56,248 nt of DNA from a virus: positions 1-56,248 of the IMG/VR virus record IMGVR_UViG_3300027917_000053; one strand, given 5' to 3'. Shown piece after piece: positions 1,298-44,342 of the stretch. The position numbers and the translations under genes were made by a program. The notes below the pieces were generated by a model, which was not told the origin of the DNA, did not search any database, and saw only the letters and a list, made by a program, of their open reading frames with translations. The stretch's first letter is position 1. Each line of letters begins with the position of its first letter.

Positions 1298-2026
1298 ATG
1301 CCAAGTTCTAACGCTTTTAATTCAGCAATAGTCAATCGCTTTTCTAGGAACTTTGGAGGTACAAATGTAGGTGTTGCTGATCCTTATTTAACTGGATATT
1401 TCTTTGTAGCCTTTACTCCGACAAGTATTTTCACTGAGATAGCAAAAAATATTGCTGGAGACGGAGTTATCAGTTTGGATGCTCCAAATATTCCTTTACT
1501 TCTCCAAGGGTGTTGTACTGGGGTGACTCCTCCAGGGGGAACATTGAATACAGTAGAATTCCCGGGTCTTGGTGGGATTAAATGGGGTGTTCCTGGAAAT
1601 ATCGATTACGGGACTACAGTAACTCTAAAATTTATGGAACTTCAAGGTCTTCCAATTTATCATGTAATGCATAATTGGTTTAAGATTATCAGAGACTATC
1701 GGTTTGGAGCAACTCGATTGCCTGATACCGATCAATCTGGTTATTCTAAAGGTAAATACGCAAGTGAACTTTATTATTGGACAACCGCCCCAGATGCACA
1801 AACGGTTGAGTATGCTGCGTGTTATGATGGTGTTTATCCAACTAAAGACCCAGCAGACTTATTCTCAAGTGATCTGGAGACAATTGGACGATTAGATGTA
1901 GAAATCGAATTTCATATTGACTACATTTGGTCAGAGAATTGGGTTTATACTAAGTGTCAGGAATTATCAACTAGAGTCAATGAAATTAGAGGTCAGATCG
2001 AAAATCGTTATGGATCTCATGGTTAA
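1298..2026 (+). CDS. Probable tail tube protein
   Basis: Encodes 242 residues with an excellent ribosome site (AAGGAGGT, about 8 nt before ATG). Placement directly after the sheath gene is the standard myovirus order sheath-tube. The sequence is beta-rich, begins near SNAFNSAIVNRF and contains a PGNIDYGTTVTLKF segment and a DVEIEFHIDYIW strand near the C-terminus, typical of T4 gp19-like tube proteins. The product would stack as hexamer rings inside the sheath. The identification rests on context and overall pattern. Confidence 0.65.
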   Translation: MPSSNAFNSAIVNRFSRNFGGTNVGVADPYLTGYFFVAFTPTSIFTEIAKNIAGDGVISLDAPNIPLLLQGCCTGVTPPGGTLNTVEFPGLGGIKWGVPGNIDYGTTVTLKFMELQGLPIYHVMHNWFKIIRDYRFGATRLPDTDQSGYSKGKYASELYYWTTAPDAQTVEYAACYDGVYPTKDPADLFSSDLETIGRLDVEIEFHIDYIWSENWVYTKCQELSTRVNEIRGQIENRYGSHG

Positions 2027-2032
2027 GGAATA

Positions 2033-3121
2033 ATGGATAAAAGAATTCTCGATACCTATCTTTTTTTAGACACCGCTAGAAAGACTTTAGCGGAGTTTTT
2101 CAATGATTTACCTACGAAAGAAGAACGATTCATTTTTAAGAAATTCATAATGAGCGAAGCAACTGACTTCGAAGTAATCCATTTATTATTTGAAGGAAAA
2201 TTACCTGAGAAAAAGAATGATTACATTATGGAGTCATTTTATTTAGATAGTTTAAGAAAGATAGGATCTATTTTCAATTTTGTACCTCTATGTGAATTTA
2301 ACTTATCATCTCAACCCGGAGTTATGAAATTTGTTTTTGAAAATAACTTAGTCTTAGAGCAAACTGATTCTGAGACTAAATTAAAACTTGAATTAGATAA
2401 GGCTAAGAGAGAATTAACTGACGAAAGGTCTAAACCTGGGACAACTAGAGAAAAAGTTGATTTAGCTGAGAAAAAAGTTAACTATGTTCAAGCTAAATTG
2501 AATAAGGCTAAAGCGAAAGAAAATCTCGTAGATGCTACGAAATCTGGAACTAATATCGAGAAAGCTCAGGCCCAAGTTGACCAGGCAGAAAACCAGGTTG
2601 ATTCCAGTCAGAGTGAACTTCAGTCAGCTAGAAAAAGTGTCACTACTATGGGCGGGAATATAGTAAGTGGTGGTGTTCAAATGGCAGGAACTCAGTATGC
2701 TGCTGAGAAATTTGGAAAAGTATTCCAAAAAGGTGGTACTATAGTAAAAGGTATGGTTAAGGGACTTTGGACAGGTGCTAAACAAGGATGGAATATTTTA
2801 AGACCATTATTGATTAAAGCATTAACTAATCCTTATACCCAAGTTGCTGCAGGTGCATTATTAGTAGTTTTATTGGCTTATGTTGCTAGAAAAGCATATT
2901 TAAGAGCATTTAAGCAAGCAGAAATGGCATGTAGAGGTTTATCAGGATCTGAGAAATCAGATTGCATTAGACGATATAAACTTAACGCATATAGACAACA
3001 ATTGAATAACCTTAAAGCAGGATTAGGGATGTGTAAATATTCTAAAAATCCTGATAAATGTTCAACTAAGGTTAGGAAAAAGATTGCTGATATTCAAAAT
3101 AAGATGTCAAAGATAGGATAA
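2033..3121 (+). CDS. Paralogous TM/four-Cys protein 1
   Basis: First of nine paralogs. The 362 residues divide into four parts. The N-terminal shared domain (about 1-110) has LDTYLFLDTARKTL, SEATDFEVIHLL, LPEKKND and VPLCEFNLSSQP. Then comes the hinge FENNLVLEQ and a long charged coiled-coil middle (about 115-200). A hydrophobic segment follows (AAGALLVVLLAYVA). The C-terminal basic domain has CRGLSG...DC and MCKYSKNPDKCS. It starts 7 bases after the tail tube gene (AAGGA before ATG). Function is unknown; position among tail genes suggests a virion or ejected protein. A prohead-protease-like site (V-x-E) ends the shared domain. Confidence 0.85.
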   Translation: MDKRILDTYLFLDTARKTLAEFFNDLPTKEERFIFKKFIMSEATDFEVIHLLFEGKLPEKKNDYIMESFYLDSLRKIGSIFNFVPLCEFNLSSQPGVMKFVFENNLVLEQTDSETKLKLELDKAKRELTDERSKPGTTREKVDLAEKKVNYVQAKLNKAKAKENLVDATKSGTNIEKAQAQVDQAENQVDSSQSELQSARKSVTTMGGNIVSGGVQMAGTQYAAEKFGKVFQKGGTIVKGMVKGLWTGAKQGWNILRPLLIKALTNPYTQVAAGALLVVLLAYVARKAYLRAFKQAEMACRGLSGSEKSDCIRRYKLNAYRQQLNNLKAGLGMCKYSKNPDKCSTKVRKKIADIQNKMSKIG

Positions 3122-3149
3122 TTATTTAATACTAGGAGGAGTCACAAAA

Positions 3150-4382
3150 ATGACACTACAAGAATCTTATCAATTTATGGCTATAGCAAGAAAGACTCTT
3201 TCTGAAATGGTCATGATGGATGAAAGTATTACTCAGAAAGAGAAAACGGAAACTTCAGATTTCTTACTCAACGAAGCAACTGATTACGAAATTCTTCATT
3301 TATTAGTTACCCAAAAACTTCCCCATCAAAAATATAACACTGAGGGAGAAATCCTTTGTATGGGTTATGTTAATAATTTTCTTGAAGAAAATAAGGAATT
3401 ATTTGATGGAATGGGAGTTGTGTTGAATGAAATGGCTCCTCTTAGTTTTTGGAATATGTCATCTCAACCCGCAGTTGCTCAATTTATGTTAGAGAATGAC
3501 TTAATTAGTGAAAGAATCTATGGAAGTAAGATAGTTAAGGATATCCCCGAATATACTAAAGAAAAAGTAGGAGCGGGGGTTAGAGCGGTTAAAAGAGGGG
3601 CAGAAAAAGTTGAAACTAGAATATCTCAAAAAATGCCTTGGTATAAGAAAACCGCTGGAGAAAAACTTAGTGCTGCTGGAGCAAAAGGAAAAGAAATTGG
3701 TGGTGCTGTAGCAGAAAAGGGAAAAGGTTTTATACAGAGTTTTTTGGATAAAATTGATGCTCTAAAAGAACGTCATAAAATCACTTTAGATACTATTAAT
3801 AGAGCAGAAATCAAGAAAAAAATGCATGCGACTGAATTAGCTAATGCAACCGATCCTGCCCAAAAAGCAAGGATTCAAAAGCTGATTGCTAATCAGGATC
3901 GAATTATTTCGATGGCCAAAGAAAATGCTCAGAAGATCACCAAGGCCATATGGGATGTTCAACAAAAAATGGCTGCTGCTAGGAAAAAAGCGAGTCAATT
4001 AGCCCAAGCAGGTAAAGCAAAAGTACAACAAGCATATACTCAAGCAAAACCTAAGGTTCAAGCAGCTTTAGGGAAGGCAAAAGAATTTGCTGGTCAACAT
4101 AAACTTGCTGTTGGTGCTGGACTTTTAGGAAGTGCTTTAGCTTTAGCCGCATGGAAAAAGTATAAGGCTTATAAAACTAGGTATTCTAAAGCATGCGGAA
4201 ACTTGACCGGAGAAGCCAAAAAAGCATGTGAGAGAAAAGCAAATATCGCTGCTATTAATGCCCAAATTTCTGGACTTAAAGCAGGTTTAAGTAAATGTAA
4301 TCAGGATAAGAACCCAGAGAAATGTAGGAAACTTATTGGGAATCAGATTGCTAAACTTCAGAAGAAGTTGACTAAGATTTAA
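3150..4382 (+). CDS. Paralogous TM/four-Cys protein 2
   Basis: Encodes 410 residues, the longest of the family. The shared N-terminal domain (NEATDYEILHLL, then PLSFWNMSSQP) ends at ENDLISER, where ISE fits a [LI]xE-type processing site. The middle is long, Ala/Lys/Glu-rich and largely helical. A hydrophobic segment (AVGAGLLGSALALAAW) precedes the basic tail with CGNLTGEAKKAC and KCNQDKNPEKC. The ribosome site AGGAGG precedes the ATG by a normal distance. The Ala/Lys-rich middle resembles phage internal or DNA-associated proteins in composition only. Confidence 0.85.
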   Translation: MTLQESYQFMAIARKTLSEMVMMDESITQKEKTETSDFLLNEATDYEILHLLVTQKLPHQKYNTEGEILCMGYVNNFLEENKELFDGMGVVLNEMAPLSFWNMSSQPAVAQFMLENDLISERIYGSKIVKDIPEYTKEKVGAGVRAVKRGAEKVETRISQKMPWYKKTAGEKLSAAGAKGKEIGGAVAEKGKGFIQSFLDKIDALKERHKITLDTINRAEIKKKMHATELANATDPAQKARIQKLIANQDRIISMAKENAQKITKAIWDVQQKMAAARKKASQLAQAGKAKVQQAYTQAKPKVQAALGKAKEFAGQHKLAVGAGLLGSALALAAWKKYKAYKTRYSKACGNLTGEAKKACERKANIAAINAQISGLKAGLSKCNQDKNPEKCRKLIGNQIAKLQKKLTKI

Positions 4383-4396
4383 AGGGGTCTATACTT

Positions 4397-4945
4397 ATGA
4401 AAGAAGAAATTCTTAACTCTAAAATCTTTCTTGCTTGTTGTAGAAAGACTTTGGCAAACATGGTTCCTAGTCAAAAGAATTTTTTAATGAACGAAGCAAC
4501 GAATTATCAAATTCTCCATATGATATATGAAAATACAGTTCCTTCTCAAAAAGAATGCTCTATACTTGAGAATGCTTATATAACTAAATCGAATATTATA
4601 GTATCTGAATTATTAGAACAATACTATGGAAGTAATGTGCATGTGGTAAAGAAGCCAATTAACTTAACGAACTTTCTTACTGTAGCAGCAATATCTTACA
4701 TTGTAACGATGTTGATAATTAGACATAAACGTAAATCTTTTATGAAAAAAGATAAATGTAAAGGTCTAAAAGGCCCAAGTTTACAAGCATGCAAGAACCA
4801 AAAACGAATTTCTGATATAAAAGCGAGAATTAAAGCATATGAGAAAGGAAAGTCTCTTTGTAATAGGACTAAAAACCCTGAGAAGTGTAAAAGTACTTTT
4901 GATAAAAAGATTGCCAAACTAAAAGTTGAGTTAGCTAAGATTTAA
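4397..4945 (+). CDS. Paralogous TM/four-Cys protein 3 (short form)
   Basis: Encodes 182 residues. It keeps the start of the shared domain (FLACCRKTL, NEATNYQILHMI, VPSQK) but lacks the VPLxEF...SNP segment found in most relatives. It then has a membrane segment (FLTVAAISYIVTMLII) and the four-Cys tail (CKGLKGPSLQAC, LCNRTKNPEKC). The loss of the central piece shows that the N-terminal unit and the TM-Cys tail are the retained elements. Function is unknown. Confidence 0.8.
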   Translation: MKEEILNSKIFLACCRKTLANMVPSQKNFLMNEATNYQILHMIYENTVPSQKECSILENAYITKSNIIVSELLEQYYGSNVHVVKKPINLTNFLTVAAISYIVTMLIIRHKRKSFMKKDKCKGLKGPSLQACKNQKRISDIKARIKAYEKGKSLCNRTKNPEKCKSTFDKKIAKLKVELAKI

Positions 4946-4972
4946 CCCTAACTATATGAGGAGAAAAGAGAA

Positions 4973-5713
4973 ATGGTATCAAAAAATGTTATAGAGACTA
5001 TTAAGTTTTTAACCTGTTGTAGGAAAGAATTGGCTGAAAATAGTCCCTCTAAAGCAAACTTTTATCTCAAAGAAGCAACCGATTATCAAATTTTAAGTAT
5101 GATTTTTGAGGACAGACTTCCTAGTGAAAAGAATGATCCCATTCTTGAGTCTGCTTATATAGTTAAAGCTAATATGGGTCTTTCTGAACTTTTAGATAAT
5201 GTTAATTTAGAAAAAGATGGATTTGTCCCTCTTTGTGAATTTGGATTGACTTCAAACCCTGTAGTTTTGAAATATTTGGTTGAGAATGATATTGTCTCGG
5301 AGGCATTTCCTGGATACGAAAAAACTAAGGGTTTTATAAAAGATGTGAAAAGATCGAAGGCAATGTATGATGCTCTAGGTAGAATTCCTTGGCTTGGACC
5401 AAAAATTCAGAAAGATTTTCGAAAAACTGGGGAAGCAATATTAGGTGTTACCGCATTGATGGGTCTAGCTGGATATTTAATGGGAAAAGCTATAGAGAAA
5501 GATTTTAGCAAAGCTAAAGTGATATGTTCTAAATTCGAAGGAGAAGAAAGAAAGGCTTGTTATAGGAAATTCAAAATCGATTCTTATAAGACTCAAATTT
5601 CTCTTCTCCAGAAACTGAAATCTAACTGTTCTAAATCTAATGATCCTAAGAAATGCTCAGCTAAACTGGATGCTAAAATCTCTAAGATTAAAGCTAAGAT
5701 GGTTAAAGCTTAA
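4973..5713 (+). CDS. Paralogous TM/four-Cys protein 4
   Basis: Encodes 246 residues in the full family layout: FLTCCRKEL, KEATDYQILSMI, LPSEKND, FVPLCEFGLTSNP, hinge ENDIVSEAF, hydrophobic segment (GVTALMGLAGYLMG), and tail CSKFEGEERKAC with NCSKSNDPKKC. A GAGGAG ribosome site lies upstream. The short middle makes this a minimal version of the family. The C-terminal region ends in alternating Lys and Ile/Leu typical of an amphipathic helix. Confidence 0.83.
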   Translation: MVSKNVIETIKFLTCCRKELAENSPSKANFYLKEATDYQILSMIFEDRLPSEKNDPILESAYIVKANMGLSELLDNVNLEKDGFVPLCEFGLTSNPVVLKYLVENDIVSEAFPGYEKTKGFIKDVKRSKAMYDALGRIPWLGPKIQKDFRKTGEAILGVTALMGLAGYLMGKAIEKDFSKAKVICSKFEGEERKACYRKFKIDSYKTQISLLQKLKSNCSKSNDPKKCSAKLDAKISKIKAKMVKA

Positions 5714-5728
5714 GAAAGGTTTTTAAAA

Positions 5729-5902
5729 ATGGGACGAAGCAGAGTTACTATGGGTAGACTAAAGGCAAATTTAAATATCCAAATACTTGATCGTGGGAGA
5801 AAAAAAGTATTTGGGGGGAGATTTGTCCACGGTTCCCATAAGAAGAGAAGTCCAACTGATATTACTAAATCTAGGAAATTAAAAGGGGTAAAGTTTGGAT
5901 AA
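5729..5902 (+). CDS. Short basic protein, 57 residues
   Basis: The ATG at 5729 follows AAGAAAGG (5712-5719) and the frame ends with TAA at 5900-5902. The product is strongly basic (about 18 Lys/Arg) and has a conserved-looking FGGRFVHGSHKKRSP core. It lies inside the paralogous TM/four-Cys cluster on the same strand but shares no obvious sequence with those proteins. Possible roles include nucleic-acid binding or a virion cofactor; nothing in the sequence decides this. The surrounding gap would otherwise be an unusually long 222 bases for this operon, which supports a real gene. Confidence 0.6.
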   Translation: MGRSRVTMGRLKANLNIQILDRGRKKVFGGRFVHGSHKKRSPTDITKSRKLKGVKFG

Positions 5903-5935
5903 TTTACCTCTTTTTTAAAGTGGGAGAATCATAGT

Positions 5936-6652
5936 ATGAAAGAAAACATTTTAGAGACTATTTCCTTTCTTACATGTTGTAGGGAAGTATTATGTGATAG
6001 TATTGATAAGTTAGATTTAACTGGATCCCAGAAAAAATCAGGGAGACGTTTTCTTACTAAAGAAGCAACTGACTATCAGATTCTACATTTAATATATGAA
6101 GGTAAATTCCCAGAAGATAAGAATAATAAACTTCGTGAAACAATATATATTAAGAAATCTAATGAATTAATTAACGAGTTTGAAATTCTCCCTAAAACTA
6201 AAGTTGAGTTTATTCCCTTATGTGAAATAGGACTTACTTCGAATCCAATAATTCTTAATTTTTTAGTTGAGACTGATTTTTGGGGTCGTGAGGGATTATT
6301 TAAAAAAATACTTACAGGAAAAACTAACTTCAGTCAGGAAGATCTAGATAAATTAACGGCAACAGCAAATATTGGTGGAACTGCTCTTTTAGCACTATTA
6401 GTGTATCTGGGGGTTAAAGCTGCTAAACTTTATAGTACTAAAGCAAAAAGGGCATGTTCTCACTTAAAAGGTAAGGAAAGAGAAGATTGTATTAAGAAGT
6501 TTAGAATTAATGCTTTAAAGGTAAAAATAGCTATTTTACAAAGAGGAAAGTCTAAGTGTTCTAAAACTAAGAATCCTCAAGAATGTAAAAATGCTATTGA
6601 CAATAAGATAGATAAGATAAGACTCAGACTTAGAGCACTAGAAAATAAGTAG
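5936..6652 (+). CDS. Paralogous TM/four-Cys protein 5
   Basis: Encodes 238 residues, very similar to the next gene in length and N-terminus (MKENILETISFLTCCRE), so the pair is a recent duplication. It shows KEATDYQILHLIYEGK, FIPLCEIGLTSNP, a hinge with ETDFWGREG in place of the usual VSE, a hydrophobic stretch (GGTALLALLVYLGV), and a tail CSHLKGKEREDC with KCSKTKNPQEC. Its ribosome site is GGGAG. The changed hinge is the main deviation in the family. Confidence 0.85.
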   Translation: MKENILETISFLTCCREVLCDSIDKLDLTGSQKKSGRRFLTKEATDYQILHLIYEGKFPEDKNNKLRETIYIKKSNELINEFEILPKTKVEFIPLCEIGLTSNPIILNFLVETDFWGREGLFKKILTGKTNFSQEDLDKLTATANIGGTALLALLVYLGVKAAKLYSTKAKRACSHLKGKEREDCIKKFRINALKVKIAILQRGKSKCSKTKNPQECKNAIDNKIDKIRLRLRALENK

Positions 6653-6682
6653 CATTTTTATCCTTAAAAAGGAGTTCATAGT

Positions 6683-7399
6683 ATGAAAGAAAACATTTTA
6701 GATACTATTTCATTTCTAACTTGTTGCCGAGAAACTTTATGTGATATAGTCGATAAGTTAGATTTAACTCAATTTCAAAAAAACTCTGGTAAACTTTTCC
6801 TTACGAATGAAGCGACTGATTTCCAAATACTCCATTTAATATATGAAGGTAAGTTACCTAAAACTGAAAATGATAAGAATCTTGAATCAAAGTATATAGA
6901 ATTATCAAATCGAATGATGCATGAATTTGAAACTCTACATAAATCTAAGGTGGAGTTTGTTCCATTAAGCGAATTTAAACTAACTTCAAACCCATCAGTT
7001 CTTGGATTTTTAGTAGAGAATAATTTAGTTAGTGAAAAATTAAAGCTTCGAACACCTTGGTCAACCGGCCCAACTCCAGAAGAAGCAAAAAGAGCAGGAA
7101 AATTCATGCTTGGAGCAACTGCGATTTTAGCAGGATTAGGATTTCTAGCAACTAAGGCGGCTAAACGCTATTTGACTCAAGCAGGAAGAACTTGTGGTCA
7201 TTTAAAATTCAAGGAAAAGCAAGAGTGTATTAAGAAATTTAAAGTTAATGCTTTAAAGGCTAAAATTAGTATTTTAGAGCGGGGAAAGTCTAAATGCGCT
7301 AAATGTAAAGATCCAGAGAAATGTAGACTTGCTATTGACGATAAGATAGATAAAGTTAATGCTCAAATCAAAGCATTAGAAAGACCCGAGGTGGGATAG
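6683..7399 (+). CDS. Paralogous TM/four-Cys protein 6
   Basis: Encodes 238 residues and is the closest relative of the preceding gene; even the upstream bases (GGAGTTCATAGT) resemble it. Layout: FLTCCRETL, NEATDFQILHLIYEGK, FVPLSEFKLTSNP, hinge ENNLVSEKL, hydrophobic segment (GATAILAGLGFLAT), and tail CGHLKFKEKQEC with KCAKCKDPEKC, which adds a fifth Cys. It ends two bases before the next ATG, suggesting coupled translation. Confidence 0.85.
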   Translation: MKENILDTISFLTCCRETLCDIVDKLDLTQFQKNSGKLFLTNEATDFQILHLIYEGKLPKTENDKNLESKYIELSNRMMHEFETLHKSKVEFVPLSEFKLTSNPSVLGFLVENNLVSEKLKLRTPWSTGPTPEEAKRAGKFMLGATAILAGLGFLATKAAKRYLTQAGRTCGHLKFKEKQECIKKFKVNALKAKISILERGKSKCAKCKDPEKCRLAIDDKIDKVNAQIKALERPEVG

Positions 7400-7400
7400 G

Positions 7401-8264
7401 ATGGATAATCTTTTCACCTTTTCTTGTAGAGAAGCACTTCTTTTAATGATTAAGGATATGAATGTATCTAAATCTGATAAATTAAAGATGTTTAACTTTG
7501 TAGTAAATGAAGCAACTGATTATCAGATTCTCCATATGGTATATGAAGATTGTTTACCTGAAAAAAAGAACGATATAATTTTAGAAAATGCTTATTTGAA
7601 GAAATCTATCTTAGTCTTAGAGAATACATTCCTTTTGGAGAAAAGAAATACTTCCGCTTCTGAATACCTTAAAAATTCTATAGATAAATTAAAAGAATTA
7701 AGTCATAATATAATGAATGAACTTCGTTATTCTAGCGACGAAATTCTGAGACTAAATGCTAAGGCAGATGAAGTATCAAAAAAACTTAAGGGAGAGTCTA
7801 ATCCAGGAGTAAAAGAAAGATACAAAAAAGAATTAGATAGATTGACGGATTTAACTATTGATTATATAGCTCGAAAGGAAGGTTTACTTGCTAGAAACCG
7901 AGATATTAGTGAAAAAATGTTTGAGTTGGGGCAAGAATTAGATAATGCTAAAAAATACGATATCTCTTATGGAAGATATAAAATAGCTACTAATGTTGCT
8001 ATTGGAGCTTTAGTAGCAGGAATTATAGCTCTTTCATGGAAAATTTATAAGAATCGTTTTTCCAAAGCAGCTAGAGCATGTAAAGGTTTAAAAGGTTGGA
8101 AAAAAGATGAATGTATGGAAAAGTTTAAAAATGATGCTTTAAAGGCAAGAATTGCTGCTATTAAGAGTCAAATGTCGAAATGTTCTAAGTCTAGCAATCC
8201 AGAGAAATGTAAGAGATTACTAAATGCTAAAATCTCTAAATTAGAAGCAAAGATTAAGAAATAA
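7401..8264 (+). CDS. Paralogous TM/four-Cys protein 7
   Basis: Encodes 287 residues. The N-terminal unit is present (FSCREALLLM, NEATDYQILHMVYED, LPEKKND) but the VPLxEF...SNP segment is replaced by a long charged coiled coil (about 75-185). A hydrophobic segment (GALVAGIIALSW) and the tail CKGLKGWKKDEC with KCSKSSNPEKC follow. Replacement of the middle by coiled coil parallels protein 1. Unknown function; probably acts with its neighbours. Confidence 0.83.
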   Translation: MDNLFTFSCREALLLMIKDMNVSKSDKLKMFNFVVNEATDYQILHMVYEDCLPEKKNDIILENAYLKKSILVLENTFLLEKRNTSASEYLKNSIDKLKELSHNIMNELRYSSDEILRLNAKADEVSKKLKGESNPGVKERYKKELDRLTDLTIDYIARKEGLLARNRDISEKMFELGQELDNAKKYDISYGRYKIATNVAIGALVAGIIALSWKIYKNRFSKAARACKGLKGWKKDECMEKFKNDALKARIAAIKSQMSKCSKSSNPEKCKRLLNAKISKLEAKIKK

Positions 8265-8276
8265 GGAGAATTGATA

Positions 8277-9017
8277 ATGGACAATCTTTTAGATAGCTAC
8301 TTGTTTATGTCTTCTTGTAGAGAAGTGGTTTCTATTTGTGTTGAGAATTCAAAATTGTCTAAAACTGAGAAAAATGAAGTTATAAACTTTATTCTCAAAG
8401 AAGCAACCGACTACCAAGTATTATCTCTTTTAATAGAGAATAAAATTCCCAAAAAGAAATACCATAATCTCAAAGAAATGATTTACTTATATATATGCAA
8501 TGAATCTTTAAGAATGGTTGAGAATGAATATGGGGTAACTAAACATACTGAATTAGTTCCTTTATTTGAGTATAATATGTCTTCCAATCCAACTATAGCT
8601 AAGTATATGGTTGAGAATAATCTTTTGGAAACGACTGAAAAAGGTGTTGAATATAAATATGTCGAACAGTTAGTAAATCCTAAGAAGGAGTCTAAAGTTA
8701 AAAAACTTGGAGACCAAATCCGAAAAACTAAAGGTGGTTCTTGGATTGCTGCAGGTGTTGTTGGACTTGCGACTGGAGCCATAGCAGCAGGAATTATCTT
8801 TGGTGCTAGGAAGTTAGCCGAAAAACTTAAGGAAAAGTATAAAGATAAAGGTAAGAAAGTTCCCCCCGAAGTAGTAAAGAAGTCAATTCAAGCGCAAATT
8901 AGAGCTTTAACTTCTTCTTTACATCTTTGTAATAAATCAAAAGAACCAGCTAAATGTCGAGCAATTGTTCTTAAGAAAGTAGGTAAACTCAAAGAGAAAC
9001 TTTCTAAGATTAAGTAG
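8277..9017 (+). CDS. Paralogous TM/four-Cys protein 8 (two Cys lost)
   Basis: The start chosen is ATG 8277, 8 nt from AAGGAG; an upstream TTG at 8271 is too close to that site. Encodes 246 residues: FMSSCREVV, KEATDYQVLSLL, LVPLFEYNMSSNP, hinge ENNLLETTE, and a hydrophobic segment rich in Gly/Ala (about 160-180). The tail keeps LCNKSKEPAKC but has lost the first Cys pair. This suggests the two Cys pairs are separable units, perhaps two disulfides or metal half-sites. Confidence 0.82.
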   Translation: MDNLLDSYLFMSSCREVVSICVENSKLSKTEKNEVINFILKEATDYQVLSLLIENKIPKKKYHNLKEMIYLYICNESLRMVENEYGVTKHTELVPLFEYNMSSNPTIAKYMVENNLLETTEKGVEYKYVEQLVNPKKESKVKKLGDQIRKTKGGSWIAAGVVGLATGAIAAGIIFGARKLAEKLKEKYKDKGKKVPPEVVKKSIQAQIRALTSSLHLCNKSKEPAKCRAIVLKKVGKLKEKLSKIK

Positions 9018-9028
9018 ATATTTATATA
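9016..9028 (+). promoter_or_regulatory. Second copy of AT-rich 13-mer
   Basis: AGATATTTATATA, identical to 1259-1271, starts in the stop codon region of the preceding gene and lies 82 bases before the gp26-like start. It could mark a promoter for the baseplate gene block. Two copies only, so support is modest. Confidence 0.3.
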
Positions 9029-9109
9029 GAGTCAAGCAGCACTAAAAGGTTATAAATCATTTTAGATAAGGGATTGAATTAAACCAATCTTTAAAAGGAG
9101 ATAGAGGAA

Positions 9110-9916
9110 ATGTTTAAAGGTTACGAAAACATTGCTTTACCCGAATATGAAGTAATAACACCACAAACTTTACTCTCATTTACTGTCAGAAGTATGACGG
9201 TTCAAGAAGAGGAAAGGCTAAAATCAAGTTTAGTCACTCCTACCAAAATTACCGAACATTTGAATAGATGTATCTATGATCTCATAGTAAGGAAACCTGA
9301 AGAAATAGTTGACTTCAAAGCATTTGAGCGATTATTGACTACTAAAGATAGAGAAGCCTTATTATTTGGTATTTATCATACTACTTACGATGAGTTAAGG
9401 AATTATGATATCACTTGTAAAGAATGTGATAAAGTATATCCAGTTACGGTAAAAGCAACTTCTACCTTTAATATAGAACTTTTTCCAGAGGGGCAAAAGG
9501 TTTTGGATGTAAAAGTTCCTATAGATTTAAAAATCTTAAAGGGTGTTAAAGTTACTATTAAGCAACCTAGTTTAGCAGATGAAATGGATGTTCTTTCGGC
9601 TTTTAGCTCAAGTAAAAATAGCGAGGTAGTAACTGATAGTATTCCTGTTGAAAAGATTGAGCAAATTATTCCTAGTAAACAAGGTGAAAAGGAAAAACCA
9701 CCTTCTGTTTGGACTGAACGTCATGATATTATAGATGCTATAATGGCAATGCCTCCATCCGATAGAAGGTTAATAAATAAAGAGTATGAAGACAATTTTG
9801 GGAAATATAGTATAAGTCTCAAAATGAAGTCTTATTGTCCATTTTGTAGGGCAGAGCAGGATTCAAATATTGATTTGGTAACACAATTTTTTCGTATGGT
9901 GTACGGATCCGCGTAG
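9110..9916 (+). CDS. Baseplate hub assembly protein, T4 gp26-like
   Basis: Encodes 268 residues with an AAAGGAG ribosome site. The pattern fits the T4_baseplate family (gp26-type): a helical first third, a CKECDKVYPVTV knuckle in the middle, a KVTIKQPS strand, a helical MPPSDRRLI segment, and a C-terminal CPFCRAEQDSNIDLVTQFFR knuckle. The two CxxC pairs probably bind one zinc. In T4 this protein helps assemble the central baseplate hub. The frame ends shortly after a T6 run at 9887-9892, where a +1 shift would join it to the next reading frame. Confidence 0.6.
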   Translation: MFKGYENIALPEYEVITPQTLLSFTVRSMTVQEEERLKSSLVTPTKITEHLNRCIYDLIVRKPEEIVDFKAFERLLTTKDREALLFGIYHTTYDELRNYDITCKECDKVYPVTVKATSTFNIELFPEGQKVLDVKVPIDLKILKGVKVTIKQPSLADEMDVLSAFSSSKNSEVVTDSIPVEKIEQIIPSKQGEKEKPPSVWTERHDIIDAIMAMPPSDRRLINKEYEDNFGKYSISLKMKSYCPFCRAEQDSNIDLVTQFFRMVYGSA

Positions 9917-9962
9917 AATCGAAGAATACCGAAAGGTACTTTCTGACAATATCTTCGCGGCT

Positions 9963-10091
9963 ATGGAGTTGATGCATCTTCAATATTCTGAAGTTATGTG
10001 TATGCCAGTAAAAAGGTTTTATGATATGTTGGAATGGAAAACTAAACTTGAAGATGAGAAAAAGAAACTTTTACAGGAGAAAAAGACTTGA
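9963..10091 (+). CDS. gp51-like baseplate piece, likely reached by +1 frameshift
   Basis: This +1 frame is open from 9882 to the TGA at 10089-10091. From the first ATG (9963) it would give 42 residues, but no ribosome site precedes that ATG. The upstream open part (PRRIEEYRKVLSDNIFAAM) also looks coding. The frame contains MELMHLQYSEVMCMPVKRF then a charged helix, a pattern like the short gp51-type hub proteins that follow gp26 in T4-like phages. The simplest reading is a fusion made by a +1 shift at CAA-TTT-TTT-CGT. The coordinates given are the conservative ATG form. Confidence 0.5.
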   Translation: MELMHLQYSEVMCMPVKRFYDMLEWKTKLEDEKKKLLQEKKT

Positions 10092-10513
10092 GTGGTATAG
10101 TTGATAGGTTTAACGCTTTAGTTAAGGGGAAAAAGAAAACTCCTCAAGACTTTTTAGCAAATATTTCTTCTGGAGGAGATTTTACACGAGTTGAAGGAAT
10201 TAATGCTATTCTTAACTCTTGGAATAATATATTATTAACTCCTTTGGGATCGTATTTGGATGATCCTACTTATGGATCAGAGTTATACAGTATGATTTTT
10301 GAACCTGCAGACATGGATACACAAGAAAGAATAATTACCGAGGTTAGGGATAGACTAACTAGAGTTGACGATAGGGCTAGTATTATCAATATTGATGTGA
10401 TTTGGAAAGCTAATCAAAAAGCATTTGATGTTACTATTTTAGTTTCCTATTTGGGAGAAGAGCAAGAGTTAGTAGTTACTATTTCTGAAGGTTCTTATAT
10501 TAAGTATATGTAA
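10088..10513 (+). CDS. Baseplate wedge protein, gp25-like
   Basis: Encodes 141 residues from a TTG start that overlaps the previous TGA (TTGA), with AGGAG upstream; the two are likely coupled. It matches the GPW/gp25 family: NSWNNILLTPLGSYLDDPTYGS, IFEPAD, an ITEVRDRLTRVDDRASI segment and C-terminal strands. In T4 and P2-like phages this protein joins the baseplate wedge to the sheath initiation complex. Length is normal for the family. Confidence 0.88.
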   Translation: MSGIVDRFNALVKGKKKTPQDFLANISSGGDFTRVEGINAILNSWNNILLTPLGSYLDDPTYGSELYSMIFEPADMDTQERIITEVRDRLTRVDDRASIINIDVIWKANQKAFDVTILVSYLGEEQELVVTISEGSYIKYM

Positions 10514-10527
10514 AGGGGAATAATATA

Positions 10528-11073
10528 ATGGATAAGTTATACTTTGCTGCAGTTAAAATGTATAAAGGACTTTTCAGGAAAAAGTTCGAAAAAAATAATA
10601 TGATTCTTGTAGTCCCTACCAAGGGAAGATTCAGCTTAGTTTTGGGGTACATGGGAAATTTTGAAAATCTTAATACTGGAGAAGATTATAAGTTAGCAGT
10701 ACTTATCCAATATTTACCCAAAGTGTTAATAGATAATTTCTTTACTACAGTTAAAGAAACTTATTCTGAAAATTTTGTAATGTTAGACGATGTAAAAGTC
10801 ACTTCTATTAAAGCTAATCCTGATGGTTCTTCAGTTCAAGTGAAAGTTGAGAAAGGAAGTTATCTAAAAGGAAGTTTAACCTTTAACTATCTACCTAATA
10901 TCTCAGATACTTCACATAGAATATATTCAGTAGAAGGATATATGCCTGATTTATTTTATGAAGAAAATCTAGAGATGCATACTATCCCATTGAAAGCAAG
11001 TGATATTAAGAGTCAATACCATGCTTTTCTCAATATGACTAAAGCAGGAACTGAATTTAATATTAGGAAATAA
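10528..11073 (+). CDS. Putative baseplate protein, unknown
   Basis: Encodes 181 residues with an AGGGGAA ribosome site. It is a mixed alpha/beta protein with many beta-type segments and no membrane segment or Cys motif. It lies between gp25-like and gp6-like genes, so a baseplate or tail-fibre-attachment role is inferred from position alone. No family was recognised. Confidence 0.6.
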   Translation: MDKLYFAAVKMYKGLFRKKFEKNNMILVVPTKGRFSLVLGYMGNFENLNTGEDYKLAVLIQYLPKVLIDNFFTTVKETYSENFVMLDDVKVTSIKANPDGSSVQVKVEKGSYLKGSLTFNYLPNISDTSHRIYSVEGYMPDLFYEENLEMHTIPLKASDIKSQYHAFLNMTKAGTEFNIRK

Positions 11074-11077
11074 TATA

Positions 11078-11299
11078 ATGGAAAACTTCGATAAAGTATT
11101 CAATGAAGTATTAACCGAGTTTCTTAGATATCAAGGACCTACAGGGGATGAGAATTTTTCAATGCCCTTTATAAGGTATAAACTTGAAATGCCTCAAAGT
11201 GAAAGAGATAGTATAGCAGGAGTATTGAAGAAAGATTTACAAGGTAAACCTGACTATATAGTTAAATCAATTGACTTAAAAGACCAAGTGCTTTTTTAG
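11078..11299 (+). CDS. Small acidic protein in baseplate operon
   Basis: Encodes 73 residues, 4 bases after the previous stop (TAATATAATG). It is mostly helical with FDKVFNEVLTEFLRY at the N-terminus. No conserved motif was recognised. The tight spacing shows it is co-translated with the neighbouring baseplate genes; it may be a small structural or chaperone protein. Confidence 0.6.
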   Translation: MENFDKVFNEVLTEFLRYQGPTGDENFSMPFIRYKLEMPQSERDSIAGVLKKDLQGKPDYIVKSIDLKDQVLF

Positions 11300-11318
11300 A
11301 ATAGGATTTTAGAAAAAT

Positions 11319-11969
11319 ATGAATACACAACTTTGGTTAAGGCTTTATGATTATATAGATGACTATCTCCATTTGGTATATAAATACTATTCTAAAGACG
11401 CAGTTGCCTATCCAGTTACCTATTATAATTTAGATACAGTAAACACAGTTTGGGAAGATGAGAAACTTATGGGTGGTTCATATGACTTAGTGGGTCAGTA
11501 TACTGGAGTAAAATGGAACAAAATATTACTACTTCCTGTGTATTTCCCAGAAGAGATAAGAACTGCTTTCAACGCAGAAGAAAGAGGATTAATTAAGGAA
11601 AACGAAACCACTATAGTTATTCCCTCAGAGTATGGGATAACTCCATACGCTCATGATATGATTAAATTGTCTCAAGATGTTCTTAGACCAACGAATGATA
11701 TATATCCAATATTTGAAGTGACTGGAGTAGAGAAATCGGTAAATACAGATTTAACTTTTTGGAAAATGCGTGTTGAAATACATGAGTCAATTACTGCTAC
11801 TCAAATAAGTAATCAAGTTTCAGCTAGGTTTGTTTTCTTTAATTATACCAAGAAAATATATCCGATAGCAACTGCTCAATTTTTACAGAAACTGATGACT
11901 AAGTCAGATACATTAAACACTAGGTTAAAGAACCTTTATGATGAAAATAGTGGACTTTATTTTTTATAA
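11319..11969 (+). CDS. Putative baseplate or neck structural protein
   Basis: Encodes 216 residues. It has a helical start, then TVWEDEKLMGGSYDLVGQYTGVKW and KILLLPVYFPEEI strands, and a long C-terminal helix. The mixture resembles structural proteins of T4-type phages, but no exact family can be named. It is placed between the small acidic gene and the ninth TM-family paralog, in the baseplate cluster. Confidence 0.55.
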   Translation: MNTQLWLRLYDYIDDYLHLVYKYYSKDAVAYPVTYYNLDTVNTVWEDEKLMGGSYDLVGQYTGVKWNKILLLPVYFPEEIRTAFNAEERGLIKENETTIVIPSEYGITPYAHDMIKLSQDVLRPTNDIYPIFEVTGVEKSVNTDLTFWKMRVEIHESITATQISNQVSARFVFFNYTKKIYPIATAQFLQKLMTKSDTLNTRLKNLYDENSGLYFL

Positions 11970-11983
11970 AGGAGGAGAATTAA

Positions 11984-12436
11984 ATGCACCCGATTACCGA
12001 AACATATCAATTTCTAAGTGATGCCAGGTGTGCTTTAGGTATTGCTACAAAAAAAGAAAAGTTCTTCACGAATGAAGCAACTGACTATGAAATTCTATAT
12101 TATATTTTCGAAGGAAAGTTACCTAATCATAAAAATGATCCTATAATGGAGTCAGCTTATTTGGAGCAAATCAATAAAGAATTAGGTCTTTCTCTAGTTC
12201 CTTTGAGTGAGTTTAAGTTAACTTCTCAACGAAATATTATGGAACATATAGTTAATAATAATTTACTGAGTGAAGGAATTATTAAACCTTCCGTAGCAGG
12301 ACCAAGTGAAAAGACTATGGAGATCATTAGAAGATGGAGAGAAAGATCTAAAAAGATGAAAAAACCAGGAACTACTTTTGCTTCAAGATATGGTGGTGCT
12401 TTACAGAGACTTCAAAAGATTGCTAAAGTTGATTAA
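11984..12436 (+). CDS. Paralogous family protein 9, N-terminal domain only
   Basis: Encodes 150 residues. The shared N-terminal domain is complete (FLSDARCAL, NEATDYEILYYI, LPNHKNDPIMESAYL, LVPLSEFKLTSQR) and ends at NNNLLSEGI. After that comes only a short basic tail (RRWRERSKKMKK); the membrane segment and four-Cys domain are absent. Finding the domain alone, inside the baseplate operon, shows it is an independent module. A GGAGGAG ribosome site is present. Confidence 0.82.
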   Translation: MHPITETYQFLSDARCALGIATKKEKFFTNEATDYEILYYIFEGKLPNHKNDPIMESAYLEQINKELGLSLVPLSEFKLTSQRNIMEHIVNNNLLSEGIIKPSVAGPSEKTMEIIRRWRERSKKMKKPGTTFASRYGGALQRLQKIAKVD

Positions 12437-27150: not shown

Positions 27151-27558
27151 TTAATAAGACATGAAAATTAACGGGTGCTTATTTCCATCAATTCCTACTT
27201 TCTGAAGTTCGGATAAAACATACATCTTAAATTCGTGAAAAGTTTGATCATCTTTCATTTCATCAGTGCTTACACCAATCCTAATTCTATTTGGAAATAG
27301 ATGAAATTTAAGCTTTCTTTCTCTAAATCTATGATGCTTCCATTCGATTAGATGATAAATATTTCTGGAACTTTTTAAGAACTTATCTCTGTTGACTATA
27401 TTAGTTCGTAAACTAAAATACTCAGACGATATTTTTTTGGTGAACATAAGTGTCTTGAGTGCTTTTATAACATCTGGATATCTCCAAGGACTAACTATGT
27501 ATATCCCAAAAATAACTGATGAAGTACCATAATATACATCTTTTTCATATCCTGTCAT
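27151..27558 (-). CDS. IGV/QTxxEF-family small protein
   Basis: The start chosen is ATG 27558 behind a clear AAGGAGG site, not the longer frame that would overlap the upstream gene. Encodes 135 residues. The C-terminal unit IRIGVSTDEMKDDQTFHEFKMYV (given here as one motif region), followed by LSELQKVGI, defines a family shared with the next four genes and with the 43.0-44.8 kb cluster. N-terminal half is variable. Function unknown. Confidence 0.7.
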   Translation of the reverse strand: MTGYEKDVYYGTSSVIFGIYIVSPWRYPDVIKALKTLMFTKKISSEYFSLRTNIVNRDKFLKSSRNIYHLIEWKHHRFRERKLKFHLFPNRIRIGVSTDEMKDDQTFHEFKMYVLSELQKVGIDGNKHPLIFMSY

Positions 27559-27577
27559 TTTAACTACCTCCTTAAAA

Positions 27578-27916
27578 CTATGTAAAAAATACCATTCTAA
27601 ACCCTTCGGTATCAATTCCAAAATCTTCTAGTTGTGAACGAACATAACTATCAAATTCCTTAAGTGTTTGGTCTCCTTTCATTTCTTTCACATTGACTCC
27701 AATTTTCATATTTTTAACATATAACATGATAGTTAATTTTCCACGGGTCATTTTTATTTTAGGTTCGGAAATGAGTTTTCTCATTTTATAGTATAAATTT
27801 TCTTTTATTTCAGGAAACTCAGATAGGAGTAATTCTTTTATTTTTGGTATTAAGTATTCGAATGTATAGATGTCAGTAAAACTAATACCACAATAAGTAA
27901 CTTCAGGTATTCCCAT
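27578..27916 (-). CDS. IGV/QTxxEF-family small protein
   Basis: The start chosen is ATG 27916 (AAAGG site 7 nt before); a TTG upstream at 27931 has no site. Encodes 112 residues: N-terminal TYCGISFTDIY, a basic middle strand, then MKIGVNVKEMKGDQTLKEF and QLEDFGI, ending in VFFT like the 28311 gene. It is the sister of that gene. Confidence 0.72.
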   Translation of the reverse strand: MGIPEVTYCGISFTDIYTFEYLIPKIKELLLSEFPEIKENLYYKMRKLISEPKIKMTRGKLTIMLYVKNMKIGVNVKEMKGDQTLKEFDSYVRSQLEDFGIDTEGFRMVFFT

Positions 27917-27933
27917 TTTTCTACCTTTCAATT

Positions 27934-28287
27934 TTAATAACCATTTACGTATATTGCCATATCATCTCTTGAGAATTTGGGTTCTGTTATCTTTCCTAAT
28001 TCTGAGATAACGTAATCTTTGAACTCATTCAGTGGGGTATTTGGATTTTTCATTCCAATCCCGATATAGACTTTTTTTACAAATACTTCAAAGTTTAAGT
28101 TTTTATGAGTTAAACTTATATAAGATAATTTTTTACGTGACTGAAAACGTATCCCACTTTTATATTCCGTCCTTGGAAGGAATGAGTCTAATCTAAGAAG
28201 ATATAGTATATAAATAAAGTCACGTATTTCTTTATATTCGTTTATATTATCTATAACTACTCCCACTTTAGCATTATAACACCACAT
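27934..28287 (-). CDS. IGV/QTxxEF-family small protein
   Basis: Encodes 117 residues. N-terminal VGVVIDNINEYKEIRDFIY, then a basic strand NLNFEVFVKKVYIGIG, then TPLNEFKDYVISELGKI. It is closest to the 28666 gene (same N-terminal layout). Alternation of the two subtypes along the cluster suggests duplication of a gene pair. Ribosome site is weak, a G-run well upstream. Confidence 0.7.
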   Translation of the reverse strand: MWCYNAKVGVVIDNINEYKEIRDFIYILYLLRLDSFLPRTEYKSGIRFQSRKKLSYISLTHKNLNFEVFVKKVYIGIGMKNPNTPLNEFKDYVISELGKITEPKFSRDDMAIYVNGY

Positions 28288-28310
28288 CTTTTAAAGACCC
28301 CCCCTTTTTT

Positions 28311-28652
28311 CTATGTAAAGAAAACCAAATGTCTTTTTACTTTAATTTTGATCTTAAATAATTCTTCAGTAACAATTCTTTCAAAGTCAAGAAGAGATTG
28401 ATTATTTTTCATTTTATCTACATTGACTCCAATTTTTATATTCCTACTGAATATTATATAAGTTAACATTCCTTTAGTTATAACTATTTTATTGAGAGGA
28501 ATAAGACCTCTTATTTCTTGATACTCCAATCCAAATCCTACTAATCGTGAGAACTTAGCTTCAAGTAAATCTTTTATTATAGGCAATAATTTCTTATAGC
28601 TATAAATATCATAAAAGTATACTCCACAGTAAACTTCTTTGGTTTTCTTCAC
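28311..28652 (-). CDS. IGV/QTxxEF-family small protein
   Basis: Encodes 113 residues from a GTG start with a GGGGGA site. N-terminal VYCGVYFYDIYSYKKLL, then IKIGVNVDKMKNNQSLLDF and a closing HLVFFT. Sister of the 27578 gene. The QTxxEF motif has become QSLLDF. Function unknown. Confidence 0.7.
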   Translation of the reverse strand: MKKTKEVYCGVYFYDIYSYKKLLPIIKDLLEAKFSRLVGFGLEYQEIRGLIPLNKIVITKGMLTYIIFSRNIKIGVNVDKMKNNQSLLDFERIVTEELFKIKIKVKRHLVFFT

Positions 28653-28665
28653 TTTTCCCCCTTTT

Positions 28666-29019
28666 CTAAAATAGTCGACTGGTATATAAAATCATATCCT
28701 TCTTTTTAAATCCAGTAAAACCAAGATCTTTTAATTCTTTAATGACAAAGGATTTAAAGTCTTTTAGAGGAACATTGTTTCTTTCTACTTCAGTCCCTAC
28801 GTAAAGTCTTTTTACATAAATCTCAAAGACTAAATTTTTATAAGGAGTTCGAATGTAATTAAATTTACTGCATTTTTCCACATATAAATTATTCTTATTG
28901 GCTATTCTATGTCGACTAATAGCTTTTTTATTAAGATATAAACAATATACAAATTCCCTTAGTTCTTTATGCTTAGATGCGTCTACTACTATTCCTACAA
29001 ATAGTTTATCATTCCACAT
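28666..29019 (-). CDS. IGV/QTxxEF-family small protein
   Basis: Start ATG 29019 with GGGGAGG 6 nt upstream, inside the end of the previous gene, so translation is coupled. Encodes 117 residues, the same length as its sister at 27934: VGIVVDASKHKELREFVYCLYL, then YVKRLYVGTEV and VPLKDFKSFVIKELKDLGF. Function unknown. Confidence 0.72.
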   Translation of the reverse strand: MWNDKLFVGIVVDASKHKELREFVYCLYLNKKAISRHRIANKNNLYVEKCSKFNYIRTPYKNLVFEIYVKRLYVGTEVERNNVPLKDFKSFVIKELKDLGFTGFKKKDMILYTSRLF

Positions 29020-29227
29020 CTTTTTCCTCCCCTTTATATCCTTCACAGTTAACCGGTTTCTGAGGAATAAAACCCTCAGAAGTCCTTTTATCAATATACT
29101 CTTTTGCTTTCTTATTAAACTTCATACAATGATAACCTTCACCTCCGAAAGTTAGATATCTACATCTTTCTTTTTCAGAGTAAAGTTTACATATATTTTC
29201 TAGTTGCTCTTTTGGTAAAAGTGACAT
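29009..29227 (-). CDS. Small Cys-containing protein
   Basis: Encodes 72 residues; AGGAG site. Cysteines in ICKLYSEKERCRYL, YHCMKF and VNCEGY suggest a small metal-binding fold, similar in style to short regulatory proteins. It is the first gene of the 25.4-29.2 kb - strand cluster, immediately next to the large repeat array. No family recognised. Confidence 0.6.
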   Translation of the reverse strand: MSLLPKEQLENICKLYSEKERCRYLTFGGEGYHCMKFNKKAKEYIDKRTSEGFIPQKPVNCEGYKGEEKDVE

Positions 29228-43025: not shown

Positions 43026-43448
43026 CTATCCAGTATTGACTTCAGTTGAATGACATTCCAGTGTTCCTTCAAACGGGGTATGTAAAAATAACTCAGCGGT
43101 TTTCTTTTTAAATTCACCAAAGGTTTCGTCTTCTCTCATATTCCAAGGAGATCTTCCAATAAATACCGAACTCATTCCCCCCGAAACTATACAATCAAAA
43201 CCTAAAGTGTTACAATAATTATGTAAAGCCATTTCAGAAAGTTCATAATCTTTACAAAATTCAGAAAACCCTTTGAATTTAATAAGATACCCCTCTCCTT
43301 CAATGCGTACTCTAAAAGCAATAGAATATAAATATATGAATTTCATTATCTCAGAATTCTCAAATATTTTCTCATCTGCGATAACCATACCATAAGCGCA
43401 AAAAACTTCAGTTGAACTATTTGTTATAAAAGAAACTTTTACAAACAT
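43026..43448 (-). CDS. NSSS-motif and IGxxPW-family protein
   Basis: Encodes 140 residues; GGAG site. The start MFVKVSFITNSSTEVFCAYG carries the FxTNSS-type N-terminus found in many uncharacterised bacterial and phage proteins. The C-terminal FIGRSPWNMREDETFGEF is the same unit as in the 27-29 kb family. So the cluster combines a short N-terminal motif with the shared C-terminal domain. Function unknown. Confidence 0.7.
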   Translation of the reverse strand: MFVKVSFITNSSTEVFCAYGMVIADEKIFENSEIMKFIYLYSIAFRVRIEGEGYLIKFKGFSEFCKDYELSEMALHNYCNTLGFDCIVSGGMSSVFIGRSPWNMREDETFGEFKKKTAELFLHTPFEGTLECHSTEVNTG

Positions 43449-43449
43449 T

Positions 43450-43905
43450 TTAATACTCCACTCTTTCGTCTATAGCATATGGTTTTACAGTTATTCCTAA
43501 GAGACTTTTTAACTTTTTCTGGACTTTATCTCTAAATTCTACTCCCGTTTCATCATTCCCTATTTTAAAAGGATTCATCCCAATAAAGATCTCTCCATAA
43601 GTATTTACGATACTTTCCATCCCAAAAATAGCACGAATCATCGATTCTGTTGAATTTATAAGTACTGAATTATGACCTTTAGTATTATCTAAAAGATCAT
43701 TCATAGAAACAAAATCAGAACCTTTCCATGATCCATCGGTCTGAGGAAATTTTCCTACTTCCCGATATGGAGAGCATAAATAATACACATATACTAAGAT
43801 ATGGATATTATTCATTAGTAAGAAGTTACTAAATTTTACTTCAATACCATATACACAAAAGTTAGTGGAAGAACTATTAGTTACAAAATCAAGTTTAGTT
43901 TTCAT
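43450..43905 (-). CDS. NSSS-motif and IGxxPF-family protein
   Basis: Encodes 151 residues: DFVTNSSSTNFCVYG at the N-terminus, an extended middle, and EIFIGMNPFKIGNDETGVEF near the C-terminus. Start overlaps the previous stop by 11 bases. Same domain layout as the flanking genes; unknown function. Confidence 0.7.
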   Translation of the reverse strand: MKTKLDFVTNSSSTNFCVYGIEVKFSNFLLMNNIHILVYVYYLCSPYREVGKFPQTDGSWKGSDFVSMNDLLDNTKGHNSVLINSTESMIRAIFGMESIVNTYGEIFIGMNPFKIGNDETGVEFRDKVQKKLKSLLGITVKPYAIDERVEY

Positions 43906-44317
43906 AATAACTCACCAATTCACCGATCTCTTTAAACTCGAAATCAGAATTTAACACTTCTTTTATTGAATCATAAACTCTTAACCGAAATTCCTTTCCT
44001 GTTTCATTATCCCCAATATCGAATGGACTCACTCCTATATAAACCATCATATTACTATACTCTGAAAAAAGATCATATTTAAGTTTTAGAAGCGACTTTA
44101 TTCCAATCACCATATTTCTCCTATTTGTAGGACATGTGAAAGTTTCTTTAGAAGGAAAGTCGACTCCTGTTCTCCTAGAAGTATAAGAAAAACGAAAATC
44201 TCTTAGAGGAATGAGAGGATTTACTATATAAGAAATATAAACAAAATCGTCCATATTTTCTATTTCTAAAAACTTTTGAATATCTATTTTAGTTCCAAGA
44301 ATAATAACAGCTTTCAT
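43895..44317 (-). CDS. IGxxPF-family protein lacking NSSS motif
   Basis: Encodes 140 residues. It keeps VYIGVSPFDIGDNETGKEF and a closing region with LVSYYEN but its N-terminus (MKAVIILGTKIDIQKFL) has no NSSS motif. AGGAGG is 14-15 nt before the ATG, a long spacing. It is therefore the same family with a replaced or decayed N-terminus. Confidence 0.65.
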   Translation of the reverse strand: MKAVIILGTKIDIQKFLEIENMDDFVYISYIVNPLIPLRDFRFSYTSRRTGVDFPSKETFTCPTNRRNMVIGIKSLLKLKYDLFSEYSNMMVYIGVSPFDIGDNETGKEFRLRVYDSIKEVLNSDFEFKEIGELVSYYEN

Positions 44318-44342
44318 TTCGTCGATGGTAATCCTCCTTTAT

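Follow-up and report, generated by a model that had tools for sequence, protein, structure and literature searches.

The closest described counterparts of the proteins treated here are the internal proteins (IPs) of phage T4, whose capsid targeting leaders comprise 10–19 residues (PMC9026906), and the inner-head proteins of phiKZ and SPN3US; the papers cited are drawn on in excerpt throughout. In SPN3US, the propeptides of gp53 and gp54 are ca. 125 residues long and that of gp47, with a predicted membrane helix, 111 residues, all being cut after AxE (PMC5694885, PMC10052503). The propeptides of phiKZ contain multiple sites, a redundancy thought to secure their removal (PMC9026906). Here we describe a family of nine paralogous proteins encoded by IMG/VR record IMGVR_UViG_3300027917_000053, positions 1–56,248, a 56-kb fragment of a large uncultured phage referred to in the following as the window. 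All nine carry the same type of N-terminal domain, which, as judged from sequence, is probably removed by a prohead protease from proteins residing inside the head.

Architecture of the family

The common N-terminal domain is of the EATDYQIL type, with E, A and T of EATDY being invariant. A profile search of the window recovered all nine proteins with E-values of 1e-35 to 1e-53 and nothing else convincing, and a search with a single sequence recovered the same nine; both results and the open reading frame (ORF) calls agree with the original prediction, in which the proteins and their coordinates had been given correctly. On account of these E-values and of the gene order kept in relatives, the relationship is beyond chance and the nine-member family is near certain to be real.

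Two profile-guided scans of viral contigs yielded 26 and 66 loci, in overlapping sets and from uncultured phages. Proteins of the window and of 87 loci, which include overlapping copies of one contig, were condensed to 122 protein clusters below 80% identity, of which 88 contain both domains, 22 only the membrane/Cys part and 12 only the N part, some being cut by contig ends. The general layout consists of an acidic, all-helical N-domain of ca. 115 residues, a hinge of the form [LIV]xE, a basic linker that varies between members, a helix of the membrane type and a helical hairpin with paired Cys in the pattern C-x10-C-x22-C-x8-C. Of the 110 clusters that include the C part, 66 have exactly this Cys spacing and 102 have four Cys in a comparable arrangement. 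Among the 77 two-domain clusters of the hinge analysis described below, the net charge of the N part is zero or negative in 74 and that of the remainder at least +8 in 76, the median isoelectric points being 4.6 and 10.2, respectively; a hydrophobic 19-mer with a Kyte-Doolittle value above 1.2 lies in the mature part of 63.

Modelled alone by AlphaFold, the N-domain forms a compact helical structure with a predicted local distance difference test score (pLDDT) of 91.3 and a predicted template modelling score of 0.84. The hinge and the linker are of low confidence, and the C part is confidently predicted as three helices; the model of the family member at 4973..5713 has a pLDDT of 84.9. In the model numbering, Cys185/Cys196 and Cys219/Cys228 each bracket one helix turn, and where the first pair is absent, as in the window copy at 8271, it is lost as a unit; presumably, each pair forms a disulfide. 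The linker varies in length from roughly 20 to 270 residues. Because it is the linker that varies, the payload behind the hinge is one conserved module of membrane helix and Cys hairpin, and the varied cargo originally proposed is rejected.

Searches of the family against Pfam, PHROGs and the sequences of solved structures assigned no family, and comparison of the whole model with viral structures and the PDB gave no significant fold match; a re-check with VIA-align produced mostly generic helical hairpins with Z-scores up to 8.6. For the N-domain alone, the best Foldseek E-value was 6.5 and the best VIA-align hit among 38 chains had a Z-score of 3.2 at a root mean square deviation of 3.7 over 58 aligned residues. 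The structure prediction thus yields a confident fold for the shared domain and no significant fold match. In two proteins of related loci (L025:9788-11038 and L029:9511-10824) an additional mini-copy of the domain stands at the N-terminus, so that duplication of the module inside a single protein is possible.

Hinge motif, protease and proposed location of the mature proteins

The hinge was analysed in those 77 of the 88 two-domain clusters in which the N-domain aligns to its end, the other 11, with domains ending early, being dropped. Within a segment of 15 residues past the domain, picked after the hinge contexts had been viewed, [LIV]xE occurs in 51 of 77 clusters compared to 19.5 on average and at most 30 upon shuffling each segment, and none of 1000 shuffles reached 51; the control motifs [LIV]xxE, [LIV]E and the reversed motif remained flat (23, 21 and 20 versus about 18–21 shuffled). 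Inside the domain, [LIV]xE is 2.05 times as frequent as in composition-shuffled sequences (544 versus about 266), with all 77 members above expectation and the sites spread across 26 alignment columns, and the reversed motif reaches a factor of 1.24. The corresponding [LIV]xE ratio is 0.60–1.21 in the tube, gp26-like, gp25, gp53-position, gp6, u15016 and u16146 proteins of the same loci, 1.55 in the tape-measure-like protein u17470 (n = 4), 1.87 in other N-termini attached to the same payload, 2.08 in the prohead protease and 0.44 in the payload itself. These data provide good support for assigning the hinge as the putative cleavage site of a removable propeptide ending in hydrophobic-x-Glu, as originally predicted. 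Of the two site types proposed at that time, the T4-type [LI]xE fits and the phiKZ-type SxE does not.

The Pfam model of T4 gp21 scored over the cut-off in two records, the two largest, when applied to the window and 26 related records, and in three of 12 further records, with one just under. A gp23-like capsid gene was detected in seven of 11 large records searched, and each of these seven also encodes a protease of the Peptidase_S77 type, recognised by Pfam in six (one under the cut-off) and by direct comparison in G005; the four records without a capsid gene gave no protease match either. The prohead protease implied by the original prediction hence occurs in all seven capsid-bearing relatives. 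The stretches E-[LM]-DHP and SMRG are conserved in the six head clusters aligned, and we take their His and Ser to be catalytic residues of the protease. The nearest cultured homologues of the capsid protein include those of Yersinia phage phiR1-37 (25% identity) and Bacillus phages AR9/PBS1 (22%). In the phiR1-37 entry the mature N-terminus is annotated at Ser87, directly after LQE, and the uncultured capsid precursors contain an invariant LLE-N that lies one residue from this maturation site in the alignment. Together, the LQE annotation and the invariant LLE lend outside support, by distant homology, to a hydrophobic-x-Glu specificity in the lineage.

Based on these data we propose a first scenario: The family would be made as precursors of internal virion proteins, with the acidic helical N-domain bringing them into the core of the prohead. 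A prohead protease of the T4 gp21 type would then cut after the hinge [LIV]xE and at further sites within the domain, thereby clearing the propeptide. The predicted mature product is very basic and would consist of a flexible Lys/Ala-rich linker, one membrane-type helix rich in small residues and the Cys-bracketed helical hairpin. The mature proteins might finally exit together with the DNA and act on the membrane of the host; this last step is a guess that we hold with some doubt.

The head as the destination is suggested by G031, in whose head cluster two payload homologues flank the protease gene (L121:2495-2905 and 3571-4113), each with its own short or mini N-terminus ending in LRE and VDE, respectively, before the membrane helix. 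Placed next to the prohead protease, they favour a head over a tail location. In T4, the core genes 67 and 68 are situated near the protease, a position taken in G031 by the payload genes.

Several observations weigh against this assignment. The motif [LIV]xE is absent from the hinge segment in 26 of the 77 members, some of which have it slightly before or after the segment and were left out of the count, and the window copy at 5936 has GRE at this place. The depletion of [LIV]xE in the payload is not specific for the motif, because [LIV]xxE is depleted likewise (ratio 0.49), and in the capsid propeptides used as a control, which provide few residues, several motifs are enriched, [LIV]xE among them. 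The motif counts also overstate independence because the members share ancestry; upon clustering at 38% identity nearly all of them chain into one cluster, so that no independent subset results. Neither the window nor its near-twin G001 gave a protease match, and no capsid gene was recognised in the window, which is a fragment. Wherever both flanks are seen, the family genes are placed between the tail tube and gp26-like genes, and payload genes are present in one of six head clusters only, the other five having none.

The constant position between the tube and gp26-like genes, which confirms the originally noted setting among tail genes, may instead reflect a role as tail components. In that case the N-domain would stay uncleaved and bind either the tail tube or the gp26-like assembly factor, and the helix and hairpin, situated in the lumen of the tail or in the baseplate hub, would pierce the host membrane; tape-measure matches, weak and restricted to single members (best E 0.0007), point in the same direction. 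We nevertheless regard this alternative as unlikely, since the propeptide-like [LIV]xE enrichment is not seen in the neighbouring tail proteins and the payload homologues of G031 adjoin the prohead protease. Moreover, u17470, with 800–955 residues, is a separate tape-measure candidate, and the protein lengths and copy numbers of the family (one to nine) are too variable for a ruler; an identity of the family with the tape measure was set aside.

The protease-site pattern and the head-cluster copies in G031 would also fit a cleaved scaffold of the prohead core, in which the membrane helix anchors the core at the inner membrane during its growth and the function is confined to assembly rather than directed at the next host. 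It would also be in line with T4, where proheads leave the membrane after maturation by gp21 (PMC9026906). However, T4 core proteins are cut into short fragments (PMC5694885), yet 59 of 77 payloads contain no [LIV]xE beyond the hinge, and the strong basicity of the predicted mature part is in keeping with internal proteins associated with DNA, which renders a scaffold quite improbable in our estimation. Least of all do we expect late membrane proteins outside the virion, serving lysis or the exclusion of other phages with a regulatory N-domain. The single membrane-type helix with a basic tail and the tandem duplication would be compatible with such a function, but no noteworthy match to holin or spanin families was obtained, the genes are linked to structural genes in relatives, and the protease-site pattern would be left unexplained.

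The proposed loading of the payload into the prohead may extend to other leaders. At other loci the same payload bears short leaders, e.g. one ending in NISE. A leader of the form M..[DE]xYLxxL(Q/N/H)E is also seen on many unrelated proteins of related phages (L109:1050-1388, L121:2495-2905, L123:993-1598 and 1608-1958, L126:37-279 and 1648-1992, L141:11270-11593 and L149:10162-10593), and this short YLxxL leader, reminiscent of the T4 capsid targeting leaders, may be a capsid targeting tag. In a stricter test, five of 392 and five of 345 genes carried it where some 1 and 0.7 would be expected, and individual shuffles attained 5 and 4; these statistics are thin and constitute a lead, not a result. 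In a far-reaching and rather unlikely version of the scenario, a folded 115-residue domain, a mini-domain of ca. 65 residues and a YLxxLxE-type leader of ca. 12–20 residues would be exchangeable, protease-removable tags by which one to nine versions of a common, disulfide-stapled, membrane-inserting module are loaded into the prohead; once ejected, these versions would assemble into a channel or an exclusion device in the membrane of the host. A HAD-like phosphatase, named from sequence, likewise has a YLxx[LI]Q leader, together with the conserved stretch ESIFPMDS; its gene lies directly upstream of the tail tube gene in many relatives (e.g. L034:3611-4117 and L099:5126-5632) and is absent from this place in the window.

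Members in the window and their surroundings

Gene content of the window includes a T4-like terminase and tail-sheath-, tube-, gp25- and gp6-like genes. The nine family ORFs are on the same (+) strand and are bounded by the tail-tube-like gene (1298..2026, +) and the gp6-like gene of the baseplate. A single block (2033-9017) comprises eight of them and is followed by a gp26-like baseplate-hub/assembly gene (9110..9916, +), and the ninth lies apart at 11984; the tube and gp26-like genes are also the upstream and downstream flanks of the family in relatives. Six of the seven copies with a full domain end it in a hydrophobic-x-Glu site, in accord with the original reading, namely members 1, 2, 4, 6, 8 and 9. 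Member 1 (2033..3121, 362 residues) has its putative pro-domain at 2033-2359 ending in VLE, followed by the linker, the hydrophobic helix (2831-2887) and the four-Cys tail (2930-3061). In member 2 (3150..4382, 410 residues) the corresponding parts are 3150-3512 ending in ISE, 4098-4154 and 4194-4325, in member 4 (4973..5713, 246 residues) 4973-5302 ending in VSE, 5438-5494 and 5525-5656, and in member 6 (6683..7399, 238 residues) 6683-7036 ending in VSE, 7094-7150 and 7193-7324. Member 5 (5936..6652, 238 residues), the copy with GRE at the hinge, has LVE shortly before it, a hydrophobic helix at 6359-6415 and a four-Cys tail at 6455-6586.

Members 3 and 7 contain only the first half of the domain and no defined hinge, with earlier VSE/LLE and VLE/LLE motifs, respectively. 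Member 3 (4397..4945, 182 residues) has a hydrophobic segment at residues 93–109, read from the sequence, and a four-Cys tail at 4757-4888; member 7 (7401..8264, 287 residues) has a long coiled linker, a hydrophobic helix at 7983-8039 and a four-Cys tail at 8079-8210. Member 8 (8271..9017, 248 residues), whose true start is probably the ATG at 8277, contains a pro-domain to 8630 ending in LLE, a hydrophobic helix at 8745-8801 and the second Cys pair only. Member 9 (11984..12436, 150 residues) comprises a pro-domain at 11984-12274 ending in LSE and a basic tail of 53 residues without membrane helix or Cys. The earlier statement that all but one member have a membrane segment and a Cys-rich tail therefore holds for the hydrophobic segment (eight of nine) but not for the four-Cys tail (seven of nine), and member 9, although devoid of helix and Cys as stated, is not the domain alone. 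Between members 4 and 5, at 5713-5936, a possible, very basic ORF of ca. 57 residues is found.

The order tube, at least one family gene, gp26-like, gp25, often small Cys-tail genes, a gene at the gp53 position and gp6 is kept in the first 26 loci; loci cut by contig ends show it in part, and L016 and L032 show family genes only. The copy number ranges from one to nine, several genomes being single-copy and no larger set than that of the window having been encountered. In the tree, five of the window copies group as a clade with support (Shimodaira-Hasegawa-like approximate likelihood ratio test 96), and part of the set is thus a lineage-specific local expansion. A tblastn search with four members against 50,697 phage records gave no match and hence no relative in cultured phages, and a scan of bacterial and archaeal genome contigs returned 29 pattern matches but no family relative. 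Flavobacterium, Ochrobactrum and PBS1 phages, considered as cultured relatives via terminase and baseplate genes, proved too distant, the stretches fetched from them being devoid of family members. No earlier description of the family was found in the open-licence full-text literature.

Elsewhere in the window, RNA polymerase beta (1008 residues) and beta-prime (914 residues), named from sequence, are encoded by single, overlapping ORFs at 49138-54871 (−), unlike the phiKZ-like phages in which the RNA polymerase genes are split. Four paralogs stand side by side at 43026-44792 (−), most with TNSS..FC.YG and IG.SP-type motifs, and five similar small proteins without assigned function are encoded in tandem at 27151-29094 (−). 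Two of 12 records encode a bS21 ribosomal protein (G031:44903-45055 and G005:6394-6552); bS21-encoding huge phages have already been published (PMC9723584).

Comparison with known internal virion proteins

With the cultured phages phiR1-37 and AR9/PBS1 the lineage shares its nearest capsid homology, including the annotated maturation of the phiR1-37 capsid after LQE, but no family member is present in the fetched stretches or detected by tblastn. The resemblance to T4 IPI–IPIII and Alt, which gp21 cuts, concerns the basic and, in the present family, putatively internal proteins, the N part ending in hydrophobic-x-Glu and the gp21-type protease, found here in relatives; as among the T4 IPs, related leaders occur on different payloads. 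In contrast to the T4 IPs, the leader is a folded, acidic domain of ca. 115 residues, short leaders being limited to some payload homologues elsewhere, and the family genes adjoin tail genes. A membrane helix with a Cys hairpin goes unmentioned for the T4 IPs in the excerpted account (PMC9026906).

The inner-head paralogs of phiKZ and SPN3US (family A, PF12699) likewise have propeptides of 111–127 residues cut after x-Glu and vary in paralog number (PMC5694885, PMC10052503), and the long propeptide with several internal sites appears to have a parallel in the 2.05-fold [LIV]xE enrichment of the N-domain. They differ in that the putative site of the present family is [LIV]xE and not AxE and that the protease fits the gp21 model (S77). 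No sequence relation was found, PF12699 exceeding the cut-off in none of 10 records and matching none of the nine window proteins.

If the proposed scenario is correct, folded loading tags of domain size that contain the sites for their own destruction would not be confined to the phiKZ group but would also be present in a large uncultured lineage whose protease is of the T4 type, and one membrane module would be loaded through several kinds of tag. It would further provide a testable rule for recognising internal virion proteins in phages not amenable to cultivation: a domain boundary marked by [LIV]xE, with an acidic part in front of it and a basic part behind. As far as the sequence comparisons indicate, the family most likely works like the T4 IPs and the inner-head proteins of phiKZ, to which it is unrelated by sequence.

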